From the NCBI RefSeq assembly GCF_022170825.1, contig NZ_CP081878.1, forward strand, positions 1,762,001-1,826,000: 64,000 nucleotides of DNA, given 5' to 3'. Below, piece by piece: positions 9,089-13,012 of this stretch; within the stretch, counting starts at the first letter, position 1; each line of letters opens with the position of its first letter. The notes below the pieces were generated by a model, which was not told the DNA's origin, made no database searches, and saw only the letters and a program-made list of their open reading frames with translations. Position numbers and translations under genes: made by a program. The DNA comes from Exiguobacterium acetylicum. GTDB taxonomy: Bacteria > Bacillota > Bacilli > Exiguobacteriales > Exiguobacteriaceae.

Positions 9089-10207
9089 ATGTACACCCAT
9101 ATCATCATCGGTGCCGGAATTCTTGGTGCCTCGACCGCGTATCATTTATCGAAGGCAGGTGAACGCGTCTTACTCGTCGACCGAAAAGAACCTGGTCGTG
9201 CCTCTCATGCGGCGGCGGGCATCATCTGTCCGTGGATGACACAACGACGAAATAAGGCATGGTACAGATTAGCGAATAACGGTGCCCATTTTTATAAGAC
9301 ACTGATTCCTGAACTCGAAGCACTCGGTGAGACGAGCACAGGCTATCAACAAGTCGGAACGATTGCCCTGCATGAAACATCAAAAATCGAGAAGATGGAG
9401 ACGATTGCGCATAATCGTTTTCCGGAAGCCCCTGCCATCGAGCGCATCGAACGACTCGATCAAGAGCGTGTCAAAGCACTCTTCCCGCTCGTTGAACAGA
9501 TCGAAGATGCCTTATTCGTCTCCGGTGGCGCTCGTGTTGACGGCCGTGCCTTATGTGCTGCTTTGATCCGTGGCGCTGTTGAGCATGGTGCAACCGTACT
9601 TGATGGGGATGCATCGCTTGTCCTAGAGGACGGGATCGTTACAGGGATTGAAATCGACAACGCGCAGTACACGGCTAATCAATTCATATTAACGGCTGGC
9701 GTCTGGTTAAACGATCTCCTTCGTCCGCTTAATCTTAAAATTGATTTACATCCGGAAAAAGGACAGATCCTTCAACTCGACTTGACCGATTCAACATCAA
9801 CGACCTGGCCCGTCATCATGGGGCAACGCGGATTGTATGTAGTTTCGATCCATGAAGGGAAACTGATCGTCGGTTCAACGCACGAAAAACAGACGGACTA
9901 TGACTTGAAACCGACCGTAAAAGGAATGCACGCCTTATTGAATCGCGCCTTACCTGTCTTACCGAGTCTCGAGGAAACGACGATTGACGAACTGCGCATC
10001 GGATTGCGTCCATATACGAAAAATTCATTGCCCGTGATCGGTCCTCTTCAAGACCATCCGAATGTATTTTTAGCGAATGGGCTCGGCGCATCTGGTTTGA
10101 CGATCGGACCGTATCTCGGTAGCCAACTAGCGAAGCTTGCGAGTCACCAAACGCCCGATATTGAATGGTCGACTTATGAACCGACTTACGTACCACTCGA
10201 ATCCTGA
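9089..10207 (+). CDS. FAD-dependent oxidoreductase of the DAO family (glycine/D-amino acid oxidase type, YurR-like)
   Basis: The 372-residue protein begins with the dinucleotide-binding signature of DAO-family flavoenzymes (HIIIGAGILGASTAYHLS, residues 4-21), followed by LVDRKEPG, whose acidic residue would bind the ribose of FAD. The C-terminal GLRPYTKNSLPVIGP and LANGLGASGLTIGP motifs complete the FAD site. Such enzymes oxidise glycine, sarcosine or D-amino acids. Length and motif pattern resemble B. subtilis YurR, whose substrate is not known to me. The ATG at 9089 has only a weak ribosome binding site. The next gene, for a tRNA-binding protein, starts 28 bases downstream and is probably in the same transcript. 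Confidence 0.9.
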   Translation: MYTHIIIGAGILGASTAYHLSKAGERVLLVDRKEPGRASHAAAGIICPWMTQRRNKAWYRLANNGAHFYKTLIPELEALGETSTGYQQVGTIALHETSKIEKMETIAHNRFPEAPAIERIERLDQERVKALFPLVEQIEDALFVSGGARVDGRALCAALIRGAVEHGATVLDGDASLVLEDGIVTGIEIDNAQYTANQFILTAGVWLNDLLRPLNLKIDLHPEKGQILQLDLTDSTSTTWPVIMGQRGLYVVSIHEGKLIVGSTHEKQTDYDLKPTVKGMHALLNRALPVLPSLEETTIDELRIGLRPYTKNSLPVIGPLQDHPNVFLANGLGASGLTIGPYLGSQLAKLASHQTPDIEWSTYEPTYVPLES

Positions 10208-10235
10208 TTATATTTCTTCGAAAGGAAGTACACCA

Positions 10236-10565
10236 TTGTCTATGAAACCGGTCGTTTCTCTTGATGTATACAATGCTTTAGATCTACGCGTCGGTACGAT
10301 TCTTTCCATCTCAGACTACGCAGACGGAATGGTTCAGCTTGAACTACAATTCGATGGGTTCACGCGTCATTTTTCGCTTGCTTGGGAATCACTTCGCCCA
10401 GATGTCCATGAATTGCTTGGAAAACAAGCAATCGCTGTGTTAAATATACCCGGTCGTACCCCTGAAGAGTCCGGGCGGTTGCTTGAGATCGGGCGAGCAG
10501 AACAATGGATGCCGATCCTCGTCGTACCGGAACACCCGATTCCGGAAGGTGCTCGCGTCGAGTAA
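10236..10565 (+). CDS. CsaA-like tRNA-binding domain protein
   Basis: The 109-residue protein is a single OB-fold tRNA-binding domain, with LDLRVGTILSISDY near the N-terminus as in CsaA and EMAPII-like proteins (typically DIRVGTI). CsaA has been described as a chaperone-like export factor and as a tRNA-binding protein. The start is unusual: GAAAGGAAG lies seven bases before a TTG at 10236, whereas the next ATG (10242) is 13 bases away, so the TTG is preferred. The sequence is divergent from CsaA in its middle part, so the exact role is unsure. It follows the FAD oxidase closely and ends at a shared terminator. Confidence 0.8.
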   Translation: MSMKPVVSLDVYNALDLRVGTILSISDYADGMVQLELQFDGFTRHFSLAWESLRPDVHELLGKQAIAVLNIPGRTPEESGRLLEIGRAEQWMPILVVPEHPIPEGARVE

Positions 10566-10577
10566 TTCTAATCCTAT

Positions 10578-10634
10578 AAAAAATACTCCCGTATGTCGCT
10601 TTTAGATGGAAGCTTACATACGGGAGTATTTTGC
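10578..10634. terminator. Strong bidirectional terminator
   Basis: A 15-base perfect stem (AATACTCCCGTATGT with ACATACGGGAGTATT) lies between the converging csaA-like and egtD genes. T-runs follow on both strands, longer on the minus strand. Confidence 0.9.
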
Positions 10635-10653
10635 TTTGTGAAGCATCACCTTA

Positions 10654-11610
10654 TTACATTTTTTCTAGATAGTGTACGCTGAATCGTTCGTCGACATCAA
10701 TCCAGCAGTTGACCGGATGAAAACCACTTTGTTGAGCGAGTTTCTCAAACTCTTCTTTACTATATTTATAGGAGTTTTCCGTATGAATCGTTTCACCTTG
10801 TTTAAATGGAACCGTCACGTCGCCTACTTGGACGAGCTGATCCAACTGACTCCGAAGATGCATCTCAATGCGTCCTTTTTCCTCATTATAGAACGCCTGG
10901 TGTTCAAAACGAGCGATATCGAATGTTCCACCAAGCATCTGATTCAAATGCGTCAACATATTCAAGTTGAACGCTGCCGTGACACCTGCTGCATCGTTAT
11001 AGGCACGTTCCAGGACATCAGTCGACTTTTTCAGATCGACACCAATCAAGAACCCGTCTCCAACCTCTAGAATCCGCGAGGAGTGACGTAAAAAGCGCAT
11101 CGCTTCCTCCGGTTCAAAGTTTCCGATTGTCGAACCCGGGAAAAAGATGACCCGTTTTTGCGCTTCTTCAACCGGTAAGGAAATTGATTGCGAGTAATCG
11201 CCACAAACAGCTTTGATATGGAGCGCAGGATATCGTTCAGAAAGTTGGCGCGCGGATTCCATCAAAAAGTCTTTTGAGATGTCGATTGGCATATACGTAT
11301 CCAGATGTGTAAATGTCTCAAGCAACATCTGGATTTTACGGCTACTCCCACTGCCATACTCGATTAACGTATGCACATCGCCAATACTTCGCGCAATTTC
11401 TGTCCGGTGGTTTTCCAAAATGGTGAGTTCCGTCCGTGTCGGATAATACTCTGGTTGTTCTGTAATTTGTTCAAATAACTGGGATCCGATATGATCGTAA
11501 AAATATTTCGCTGGTAAGATTTTTTGCTCTCGCATCAGACCGTCGACGACTTCTAAGCGCATGTTTTGTTGCGGCGTATATAAATCGTAACCAATGACTG
11601 TTTCCCGCAT
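10654..11610 (-). CDS. egtD: L-histidine N-alpha-methyltransferase (ergothioneine biosynthesis)
   Basis: This SAM-dependent enzyme trimethylates histidine to hercynine, the first step to ergothioneine. The 318-residue sequence carries EgtD hallmarks: YDHIGSQLFEQIT and EYYPTRTELTIL near the N-terminus (about residues 38-60), an SAM loop LIEYGSGSSRKIQ (about 81-93), and FFPGSTIGNFEPEEA (about 157-171). The upstream egtB stop and this ATG share a base (TGATG), which indicates translational coupling; an in-frame GTG lies one codon earlier. The gene ends at a strong terminator. EgtD and EgtB together make hercynylcysteine sulfoxide. No EgtA, EgtC or EgtE lies alongside. Confidence 0.93.
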   Translation of the reverse strand: MRETVIGYDLYTPQQNMRLEVVDGLMREQKILPAKYFYDHIGSQLFEQITEQPEYYPTRTELTILENHRTEIARSIGDVHTLIEYGSGSSRKIQMLLETFTHLDTYMPIDISKDFLMESARQLSERYPALHIKAVCGDYSQSISLPVEEAQKRVIFFPGSTIGNFEPEEAMRFLRHSSRILEVGDGFLIGVDLKKSTDVLERAYNDAAGVTAAFNLNMLTHLNQMLGGTFDIARFEHQAFYNEEKGRIEMHLRSQLDQLVQVGDVTVPFKQGETIHTENSYKYSKEEFEKLAQQSGFHPVNCWIDVDERFSVHYLEKM

Positions 11611-12890
11611 CACATGTCACCCGCCAATCGGAAGCCGCCAAACAACCAGCGTTTATCAGGTGGGAAGAAGTTCCGATACGTCTCGCGAATATGATCGTCT
11701 GGCGTCACGCAAGCACCACCACGCAACACCATCTGATTACACATGAACTTCGCGTTATACTCGCCGAGTGCCCCTTCAAGTGGTTTGCTACCAGGATACG
11801 AACTATACGGACTAGACGTCCATTCCCAGACGTTTCCGAACATACTTGCAAGCGTCGTTTCTGATTCTTCGACTGCTACGGGATGGAACGTACCGCTTCC
11901 CATCATGTTGCGTTTCGTTACGGAATCGACTTGGCGAGAAGCCCATTCCCACTCCGCTTCTGTCGGCAATCGTTTCCCTTGGTAACGACTGTAAGCGTCC
12001 GCCTCATAAAAACTGACATGACAGACCGGTTCGTCGAGCCGAAGGGGTTCGACACCATTCATCGTAAAGATCGTCCATTCCCCCGCGTCATCCTTCATCC
12101 AATATAACGGCGCTTTCCAGCCTTCTTTTTGGACAGTCGCGTAGCCATCCGACAACCAATACTCCGATTTTTCATAACCGCCTGCTTCAATGAACGCCAA
12201 ATATTCCCCATTCGTGACGGGACGCGTTGCTAATTCAAACGGATGAAGCCATGTTTTGTGACGCGGACTTTCGTTGTCAAACGCAAAACCGTCACCCGTA
12301 TGACCAATCTCGACGAGTCCCTCTTCGAATTGGATAAAGGATGTCTCTGTAACTAAACTCTCAGTTGTATCTGTTGTCATCGATATCGATTGATAGGCAG
12401 GTAACAATGGATTCGTAAAAAAGTTATATTTCACGTCCATCAAAATCAATTCCTGATGTTGTTGTTCATGCTGAAGACCCATCTCGACTAATGCTTCCAC
12501 TTTACGCTGATCTTCCGGAGTCCGTTCCGCTTTCAAAAACTCGACCATTCGTTCATCGACATACGCCCGGTAAGCAATGATATCCTCGACGGTCGGACGT
12601 GACAACATGCCCCGTTGCTGACGAGGTTGATAAGGTCCGATCGAGTTGTAGTACGAGTTAAATAGATAATTATACTTCGGATGGAAAACTTGATACCCTT
12701 CACTATATTCTTGTAGAATCATCCGTTCAAAAAACCATGTCGTATGGGCGATATGCCACTTTGGTGGACTAACATCCGAGCTGGCTTGAATAATAAAATC
12801 TTCCGCTTCAAGTGGTTCAATCAAGGCAATCGTTTGATTCCGAACGGTGGCGAATTTTTCGATTAAGTACGATGTCGTTTCAAATATCAT
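11610..12890 (-). CDS. egtB: Hercynylcysteine sulfoxide synthase-type enzyme EgtB
   Basis: EgtB is a non-haem iron enzyme that uses oxygen to join hercynine to a thiol (gamma-glutamylcysteine or cysteine, depending on the class). This 426-residue protein has the two-domain layout: an N-terminal DinB-like part and a C-terminal FGE-sulfatase (formylglycine-generating-like) domain. Likely iron ligands are His49 (WHIAHTTWF), His141 and His145 (HEQQHQE). The C-terminal domain shows RLPTEAEWEWASR, FGNVWEWTSSPYSSYPG and LRGGACVT. The ATG at 12890 has GGGAGTG six bases upstream; a GTG three codons earlier is less likely. The thiol co-substrate cannot be told from motifs alone. Since no egtA or egtC is adjacent, a cysteine-using class is possible (inference). 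Confidence 0.92.
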   Translation of the reverse strand: MIFETTSYLIEKFATVRNQTIALIEPLEAEDFIIQASSDVSPPKWHIAHTTWFFERMILQEYSEGYQVFHPKYNYLFNSYYNSIGPYQPRQQRGMLSRPTVEDIIAYRAYVDERMVEFLKAERTPEDQRKVEALVEMGLQHEQQHQELILMDVKYNFFTNPLLPAYQSISMTTDTTESLVTETSFIQFEEGLVEIGHTGDGFAFDNESPRHKTWLHPFELATRPVTNGEYLAFIEAGGYEKSEYWLSDGYATVQKEGWKAPLYWMKDDAGEWTIFTMNGVEPLRLDEPVCHVSFYEADAYSRYQGKRLPTEAEWEWASRQVDSVTKRNMMGSGTFHPVAVEESETTLASMFGNVWEWTSSPYSSYPGSKPLEGALGEYNAKFMCNQMVLRGGACVTPDDHIRETYRNFFPPDKRWLFGGFRLAGDM

Positions 12891-12976
12891 GTCAATCACT
12901 CCCTATCCAAAATATTCCGAATCTTTTAGTCCATTTGATGTATACCCCTCCTATGGAAAAGTTATGCTAAGGAAAC

Positions 12977-13003
12977 AAAAAAATCCGCTCCATTAAGAGC
13001 GGA
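12977..13003 (-). terminator. Terminator of guaC
   Basis: The stem TCCGCTC/GAGCGGA with a six-base loop is followed on the minus strand by seven T, ten bases after the guaC stop. Confidence 0.88.
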
Positions 13004-13012
13004 CACATCGTA

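Follow-up and report, generated by a model that had tools for sequence, protein, structure and literature searches.

Genes for ergothioneine synthesis are rare in the class to which Exiguobacterium acetylicum belongs; does a pair of adjacent genes in this organism encode such a route, and what would supply the sulfur and finish the pathway? Our analysis starts from the window, a 64,000-nucleotide stretch of contig NZ_CP081878.1, in a genome of 3.36 Mb on two contigs. We find that the pair is very probably a two-gene operon for aerobic ergothioneine synthesis, in which a Cth-like EgtB would use cysteine and a non-dedicated activity would carry out the last step; substrate and product are read from protein families, active-site residues, gene order, conservation, and the lack of EgtE and two-ligase-family matches.

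Organization of the locus

The features of the locus, all on the minus strand, are as follows.

10580-10632, minus: hairpin and T run 3' of egtD, probably a terminator (fold of 10575-10655, -32.7 kcal/mol, z -7.3)
10654-11610, minus: egtD, histidine N-alpha-methyltransferase, 318 aa from ATG (TIGR03438, PF10017, nearest solved chain EgtD 4pim)
11610-12890, minus: egtB, ergothioneine sulfoxide synthase, DinB_2 and FGE-like domains, 426 aa (TIGR03440, Pfam, nearest solved chains CthEgtB 8qf6/6qki/6o6l, active-site residues)
12897-12904, minus: ribosome-binding-like sequence AGGGAGTG 5' of the egtB ATG (direct reading of the sequence)
12910-12921, minus: conserved block TTCGGAATATTT upstream of egtB (alignment of genus loci)
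12983-13004, minus: probable intrinsic terminator of guaC, between guaC and egtB, hairpin and T run (fold of 12975-13012, -16.5 kcal/mol, z -5.2)

With ATG starts at 12890 for egtB and 11610 for egtD, the two genes overlap by a single base, stop and start sharing it in TGATG, as the initial annotation had proposed. By reading of the sequence, an in-frame GTG at 12899 is a possible alternative start for egtB, and another at 11613 for egtD would lengthen the overlap to 4 bases. Profile scans of the neighbours find guaC, a weak CsaA-like gene and a thiO-like oxidase, bearing out the earlier statement that no egtA, egtC or egtE lies beside the pair. The CsaA-like gene (10137-10565) scores far under all model cut-offs and has no Pfam match; of the 18 genus loci, 17 have it between thiO and egtD (16 short stretches, and L004 by way of the wider stretch L051), but its sequence diverges fast: identity falls to 39-52% in the second subclade, against 64-74% there for EgtD and EgtB.

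The egtB-egtD pair probably forms its own two-gene transcript, with limits set by the two hairpins. A terminator consensus scan returns 2 sites against a mean of 2.3 in shuffled sequences, so the case for the terminators is made by their fold energies; the scan, with a loop limit of 8 bases, lists the 12983-13004 site and not the 10580-10632 hairpin. A sigma-70 scan gives 8 sites against 4.3 expected, all within egtB or egtD and none upstream, and so we claim no promoter. When the upstream regions of 14 genus loci out of 18 are aligned, a set that includes 8 near-copies, most of the invariant columns fall in the 12910-12921 block, the T run of the upstream terminator aside. This block matches once in the window against 0.53 matches expected by chance, so that the evidence for it is position and conservation, not rarity, and it is possibly an operator. 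The same stretch, TTCnGAAnATTT, lies directly upstream of the egtB ribosome-binding site and holds a short palindrome.

Family assignment and the EgtB active site

EgtD scores 422.7 bits against TIGR03438 (cut-off 290.9, E 7.1e-127, profile positions 2-300 of 301) and 392.5 bits against PF10017 (Methyltransf_33), and its nearest solved chain, EgtD 4pim, gives 218.9 bits. EgtB scores 568.6 bits against TIGR03440 (cut-off 360, E 8.3e-171, profile positions 2-413 of 413), carries the Pfam domains DinB_2 and FGE-sulfatase, and among solved chains matches CthEgtB at ~490 bits (an alignment spanning residues 16-429 of the longer egtB open reading frame), MthEgtB at 132.5 and SenA at ~103. Both proteins thus lie far above curated family cut-offs, and the identities first assigned to them hold. 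By family, EgtD is predicted to trimethylate histidine to hercynine, with SAM.

The three histidines singled out in EgtB, His49, His141 and His145, align with His51, His134 and His138 of the mycobacterial enzyme MthEgtB, which we take to be iron ligands, assuming likewise the MthEgtB residue numbering used here; the match upholds the proposed site. EgtB places Arg90 and Arg93 at the columns of MthEgtB Arg87 and Arg90, Leu375 at that of Tyr377 and Phe409 at that of Asp416, where Arg87, Arg90 and Asp416 presumably bind the sulfur substrate. The tandem Tyr80-Tyr81 corresponds to CthEgtB Tyr93-Tyr94. Passages of a review (PMC10903977) speak of "three histidine residues" at the EgtB iron site, state that Tyr93-Tyr94 of CthEgtB fill the role of MthEgtB Tyr377, and give the preferred sulfur substrate as cysteine for CthEgtB and gamma-glutamylcysteine for MthEgtB. 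The comparison of pocket residues that had been suggested therefore sides with CthEgtB (tandem Tyr, Leu375, Phe409): judged by its residues, EgtB is of the Cth-like tandem-tyrosine type, most like the cysteine-preferring Chloracidobacterium enzyme. Of 13 other Cth-like EgtBs in the comparison, 12 also have Phe at this position and one has Tyr, so Phe409 is a marker of the group and no test of cysteine use here.

A search of the genome for gamma-glutamylcysteine ligases of two families finds no GCS2 and no Glu_cys_ligase match, which makes cysteine the likely sulfur donor. The Cth-like residues and this ligase result both favour the suggestion of the initial annotation that EgtB may use cysteine directly. 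EgtB, a predicted non-heme iron enzyme of the tandem-tyrosine type, would then use O2 to join cysteine to the imidazole ring, yielding hercynylcysteine sulfoxide.

The last step of the pathway

No protein exceeds the cut-off of the EgtE model TIGR04343 in any of the 19 genus genomes, the window's own included; matches under the cut-off occur in 19 of 19 genus genomes and 14 of 14 control genomes, and the best in the window's genome is SufS, at ~91 bits against a cut-off of 400. Aminotran_5 matches in this genome number 11. Eight of these proteins were scanned (7 with NCBIfam, and SerC) and none reaches the EgtE cut-off, in agreement with the genus search; outside the NCBIfam scan stand L036, L039 and L040, which by eye resemble a decarboxylase, a KBL-like enzyme and a glycine dehydrogenase.

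Other PLP enzymes are present, among them cysteine desulfurases, kynureninase, cystathionine gamma-lyase and a 37% relative of the protein at L045:16670-17833, by eye a PatB/MalY-like C-S lyase. Kynureninase and the PatB/MalY-like relative each occur in every one of the 38 family genomes, whether or not egtBD is there, so neither follows the distribution of the pair; we rejected both as lyases tied to egtBD, and either is possible as a general last-step enzyme. Around the best 80 of 509 related loci, a search with nine query enzymes, which misses unlike PLP families and includes some stretches that are short contigs, gives a PLP-enzyme match in 7 (L061, L073, L075, L095, L122, L124 and L135), and one match in the 6 same-class stretches (L045). 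At L061 (8001-9239, Fictibacillus fluitans) no EgtD turns up within 8 kb on either side of an EgtB; ~1 kb downstream of this EgtB is a PLP enzyme resembling aminotransferases, 20% identical to the query.

The search for a PLP lyase elsewhere in the genome, proposed at the outset, thus returns general PLP enzymes, none of them a dedicated EgtE. In yeast, an Aspergillus fusion enzyme is enough for ergothioneine to be made, and the amount fell when a candidate lyase was added, according to part of one study (PMC9502471); a review passage (PMC11993508) suggests an inherent yeast activity or an abiotic reaction for this step. To require a separate lyase for completing the pathway, as the initial annotation did, is on these grounds too strong: a dedicated lyase may not be needed, and the final C-S cleavage would probably fall to a household PLP enzyme or to plain chemistry.

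Alternative readings of the pair

Three other readings can be set against an operon that makes ergothioneine from cysteine. Were the FGE-like enzyme a selenoneine synthase (SenA), the product would be selenoneine, and the SenA model NF041186 does match at 353.8 bits; this is under its cut-off of 420, however, while the EgtB model is well exceeded (568.6 against 360), solved SenA chains score only ~103 bits, and no selenosugar synthase is found among the scanned neighbours, so that we give this reading next to no weight. The OvoA model TIGR04344 is also under its cut-off on this protein (128.2 bits against 400). A mycobacterial route, in which EgtB uses gamma-glutamylcysteine and the pathway is completed by EgtA, EgtC and EgtE encoded at scattered sites, has a parallel in Methylobacterium, where egtBD is clustered and egtA, egtC and egtE lie elsewhere (in part of PMC4621440). 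It is made very unlikely by the lack of a GCS2 or Glu_cys_ligase match in the genome, by an EgtE model that passes its cut-off in none of the 19 genus genomes and matches SufS best in the window's own genome, and by the Phe that replaces Mth Asp416.

Finally, the pathway may end at hercynylcysteine sulfoxide or another hercynine thioether in place of ergothioneine, as the missing EgtE and the lack of a PLP enzyme directly beside the pair in neighbour scans might suggest. Against such an early stop stand the cysteine desulfurases, the cystathionine gamma-lyase and the by-eye PatB/MalY-like relative, as well as the yeast that makes ergothioneine with a fungal fusion enzyme alone (in part of PMC9502471), and we see only a slim chance that it is correct.

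Distribution in the genus and the class

EgtD is present in 18 of 19 genus genomes and in none of 19 genomes of the sister genus. Across the class it exceeds the cut-off in 23 of 398 genomes, 18 of them in the genus and 5 among the 379 sampled genomes outside it (sister genus counted in). EgtB adjoins EgtD at each of the 18 genus loci and at the 5 loci outside; among the latter, the EgtB frame of L020 is broken. In G205 (L044 7588-8885), whose assembly has a listed contamination of 8%, the EgtB frame is in two pieces and that of EgtD is uninterrupted. The earlier remark that such genes are less expected in Firmicutes holds by frequency (5 of 379 outside the genus), but egtB and egtD homologs had already been reported there, according to a review passage (PMC12071650). 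In part of another review (PMC11993508), Bacillus subtilis, Clostridium perfringens and Lactobacillus casei are reported non-producers, which fits the rarity and yields no positive case in the phylum.

BshC, the product of a bacillithiol synthesis gene, is found over its cut-off. What emerges is a predicted ergothioneine operon that is nearly genus-wide, in a class with few such genes, and the sister genus, being without the pair, offers a natural comparison for the role of ergothioneine in a Gram-positive bearing a bacillithiol gene.

The surroundings of the pair are largely shared within the genus. A thiO-like gene is nearby in 17 of 18 genus loci (16 short stretches, and L004 in the wider stretch L051), with L010 unsettled; in L051 (3808-5387, genome G004) two open reading frames, transposase-like by eye, lie between the CsaA-like gene and egtD. 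The one genus genome with no egtD, G005, keeps the order of the LysR gene, w7210, w8256 and thiO, and guaC and the genes beyond are not adjacent; in three sister-genus genomes thiO is the only match in the stretch. We looked in these four genomes for a clean empty site and rejected the idea, as none shows an insertion scar. Gain after the split from G005 and loss in G005 look alike in this locus comparison.

Trees of EgtB and EgtD

Both trees are quick ones with SH-aLRT support and midpoint rooting, and each includes 8 of the 18 chromosomal genus copies. The named loci in them are the best 80 of 509 matches from a contig search and so are not an even sample. The EgtB tree has 94 rows, with L020 left out (EgtB in two frame-broken pieces), and the EgtD tree has 78, since 14 of the 80 named loci have no EgtD found and 2 were dropped (<251 residues).

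In the EgtB tree the eight chromosomal genus rows form one group (99, starred), inside a 19-row set (95, starred) of 17 class or Bacillota rows and 2 gammaproteobacterial MAGs; CthEgtB falls with one planctomycete and one myxococcal row (91, not starred), apart from Bacilli, and Fictibacillus arsenicus has an EgtB very close to that of G389. The genus rows again form a single group in the EgtD tree (93, not starred); with L022 (G355) added, the support is 99, starred, and Fictibacillus, G389 and G205 join them in a wider group (91). G355 is the nearest relative outside the genus in both trees. Elsewhere in the EgtD tree, rows L019 and L023 of the same class sit within gammaproteobacteria (86), L047, the copy on the plasmid, is next to a Bacteroidetes MAG (83), and both gammaproteobacterial MAGs are far from the genus; these placements speak against a single history. 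A phylogeny of both proteins had been proposed as a way to see whether the pair was acquired: the patchy presence and the grouping with some other Bacilli fit spread among Bacilli, with repeated loss as a possible alternative.

A second pair on an Exiguobacterium plasmid

Another genome of the genus, G016, has a second, divergent egtBD on a 55 kb contig (L047 7834-10040, G016:C3). Seven plasmid records match this contig, 6 of them from Exiguobacterium; the E. alkaliphilum plasmid pE52 (NZ_CP073102.1) does so along 10.5 kb at 98.2%. On pE52, which is mobilizable (MOBP), the region of the pair is L155 11850-20316. Its ~8.5 kb hold, on both strands, genes for a flavodoxin-family protein, egtB, egtD, an NAD(P)/FAD oxidoreductase, a haloacid dehalogenase and a Crp/Fnr regulator, together with glutaredoxin, thioredoxin, peroxiredoxin and OsmC genes, a content that makes a thiol-redox island possible. 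NCBI-style annotation of pE52 already names egtB and egtD. In G205 (L044), relatives of the Crp, OsmC, HAD and FAD-enzyme genes lie near egtBD. Separately, in the window's own genome, one 20 kb piece of the smaller contig matches a plasmid record (Exiguobacterium sp. Helios) over 22% of its length at 79.2% identity.

We considered the plasmid FAD oxidoreductase as an ergothioneine-disulfide reductase and rejected it. The best model for the G016 enzyme is glutathione-disulfide reductase, below its cut-off. Relatives (E <= 1e-80) occur in at least 70 of 398 class genomes, counts that are lower bounds because 4 first-look candidates were scored per genome, and in all 38 family genomes, with or without egtBD; a family so common in the class without egtBD is not tied to it. 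Among the five egtD-bearing genomes outside the genus, a relative was scored in G205 only, far from its egtBD, and the relative neighbouring egtBD there consists of frame-broken pieces.

It is conceivable, and we offer it tentatively as something less than probable, that an Exiguobacterium clade with a bacillithiol synthesis gene gained an egtBD cassette that moves between Bacilli, in some cases carried by mobilizable plasmids alongside genes for peroxiredoxin, thioredoxin, glutaredoxin and OsmC, and that a recruited household lyase finishes the pathway.

Comparison with known systems

We found no paper on ergothioneine synthesis in Exiguobacterium in the open-licence library searched, going by titles and the opening of abstracts (PMC12719100 included). 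The five-gene cluster is described as specific to actinobacteria in passages of two papers, one citing a survey by Jones et al. (PMC4621440) and the other a survey of over 2,500 bacteria (PMC7278568). Outside actinobacteria, egtB and egtD usually stand as a pair on their own: among the best 80 of 509 related loci, 51 have egtB-egtD and 14 have egtD-egtB within 300 bases (65 of 80), the rest comprising 14 without EgtD in the stretch and 1 with a distant EgtD.

The mycobacterial egtABCDE system has homologous EgtB and EgtD steps, whereas the pair in the window has no egtA, egtC or egtE alongside, a different EgtB active-site tyrosine and no ligase of the two tested families in its genome. As part of one study reports (PMC4621440), Methylobacterium carries a tandem egtBD whose deletion abolished ergothioneine, and in Methylobacterium aquaticum 22A this tandem is likewise away from egtA, egtC and egtE; that pair is on a plasmid, however, with egtA, egtC and egtE homologs elsewhere in the genome, whereas the window's genome has no EgtE over cut-off and no ligase of two families. 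CthEgtB of Chloracidobacterium thermophilum (6qki, 6o6l, 8qf6) shares the histidines, the tandem Tyr, and the Leu and Phe at the positions of Mth Tyr377 and Asp416, but comes from another phylum and groups apart from Bacilli in the EgtB tree.

Closer to home, Fictibacillus (L060, L062), G355 and G389 have the same two-gene layout, with EgtB identities of 57-62% and different neighbours in G355 and G389, the two examined. The pair on E. alkaliphilum pE52 has this layout too, in what is probably the same genus, but its EgtB and EgtD are 55.6% and 45.3% identical to those of the window, and it lies among thiol-redox genes on a mobilizable plasmid. Measured against these systems, the operon is ordinary in design and notable only for its rarity in its class: the biochemistry of such an operon has already been described, and its type is common among bacteria and rare among its own relatives.
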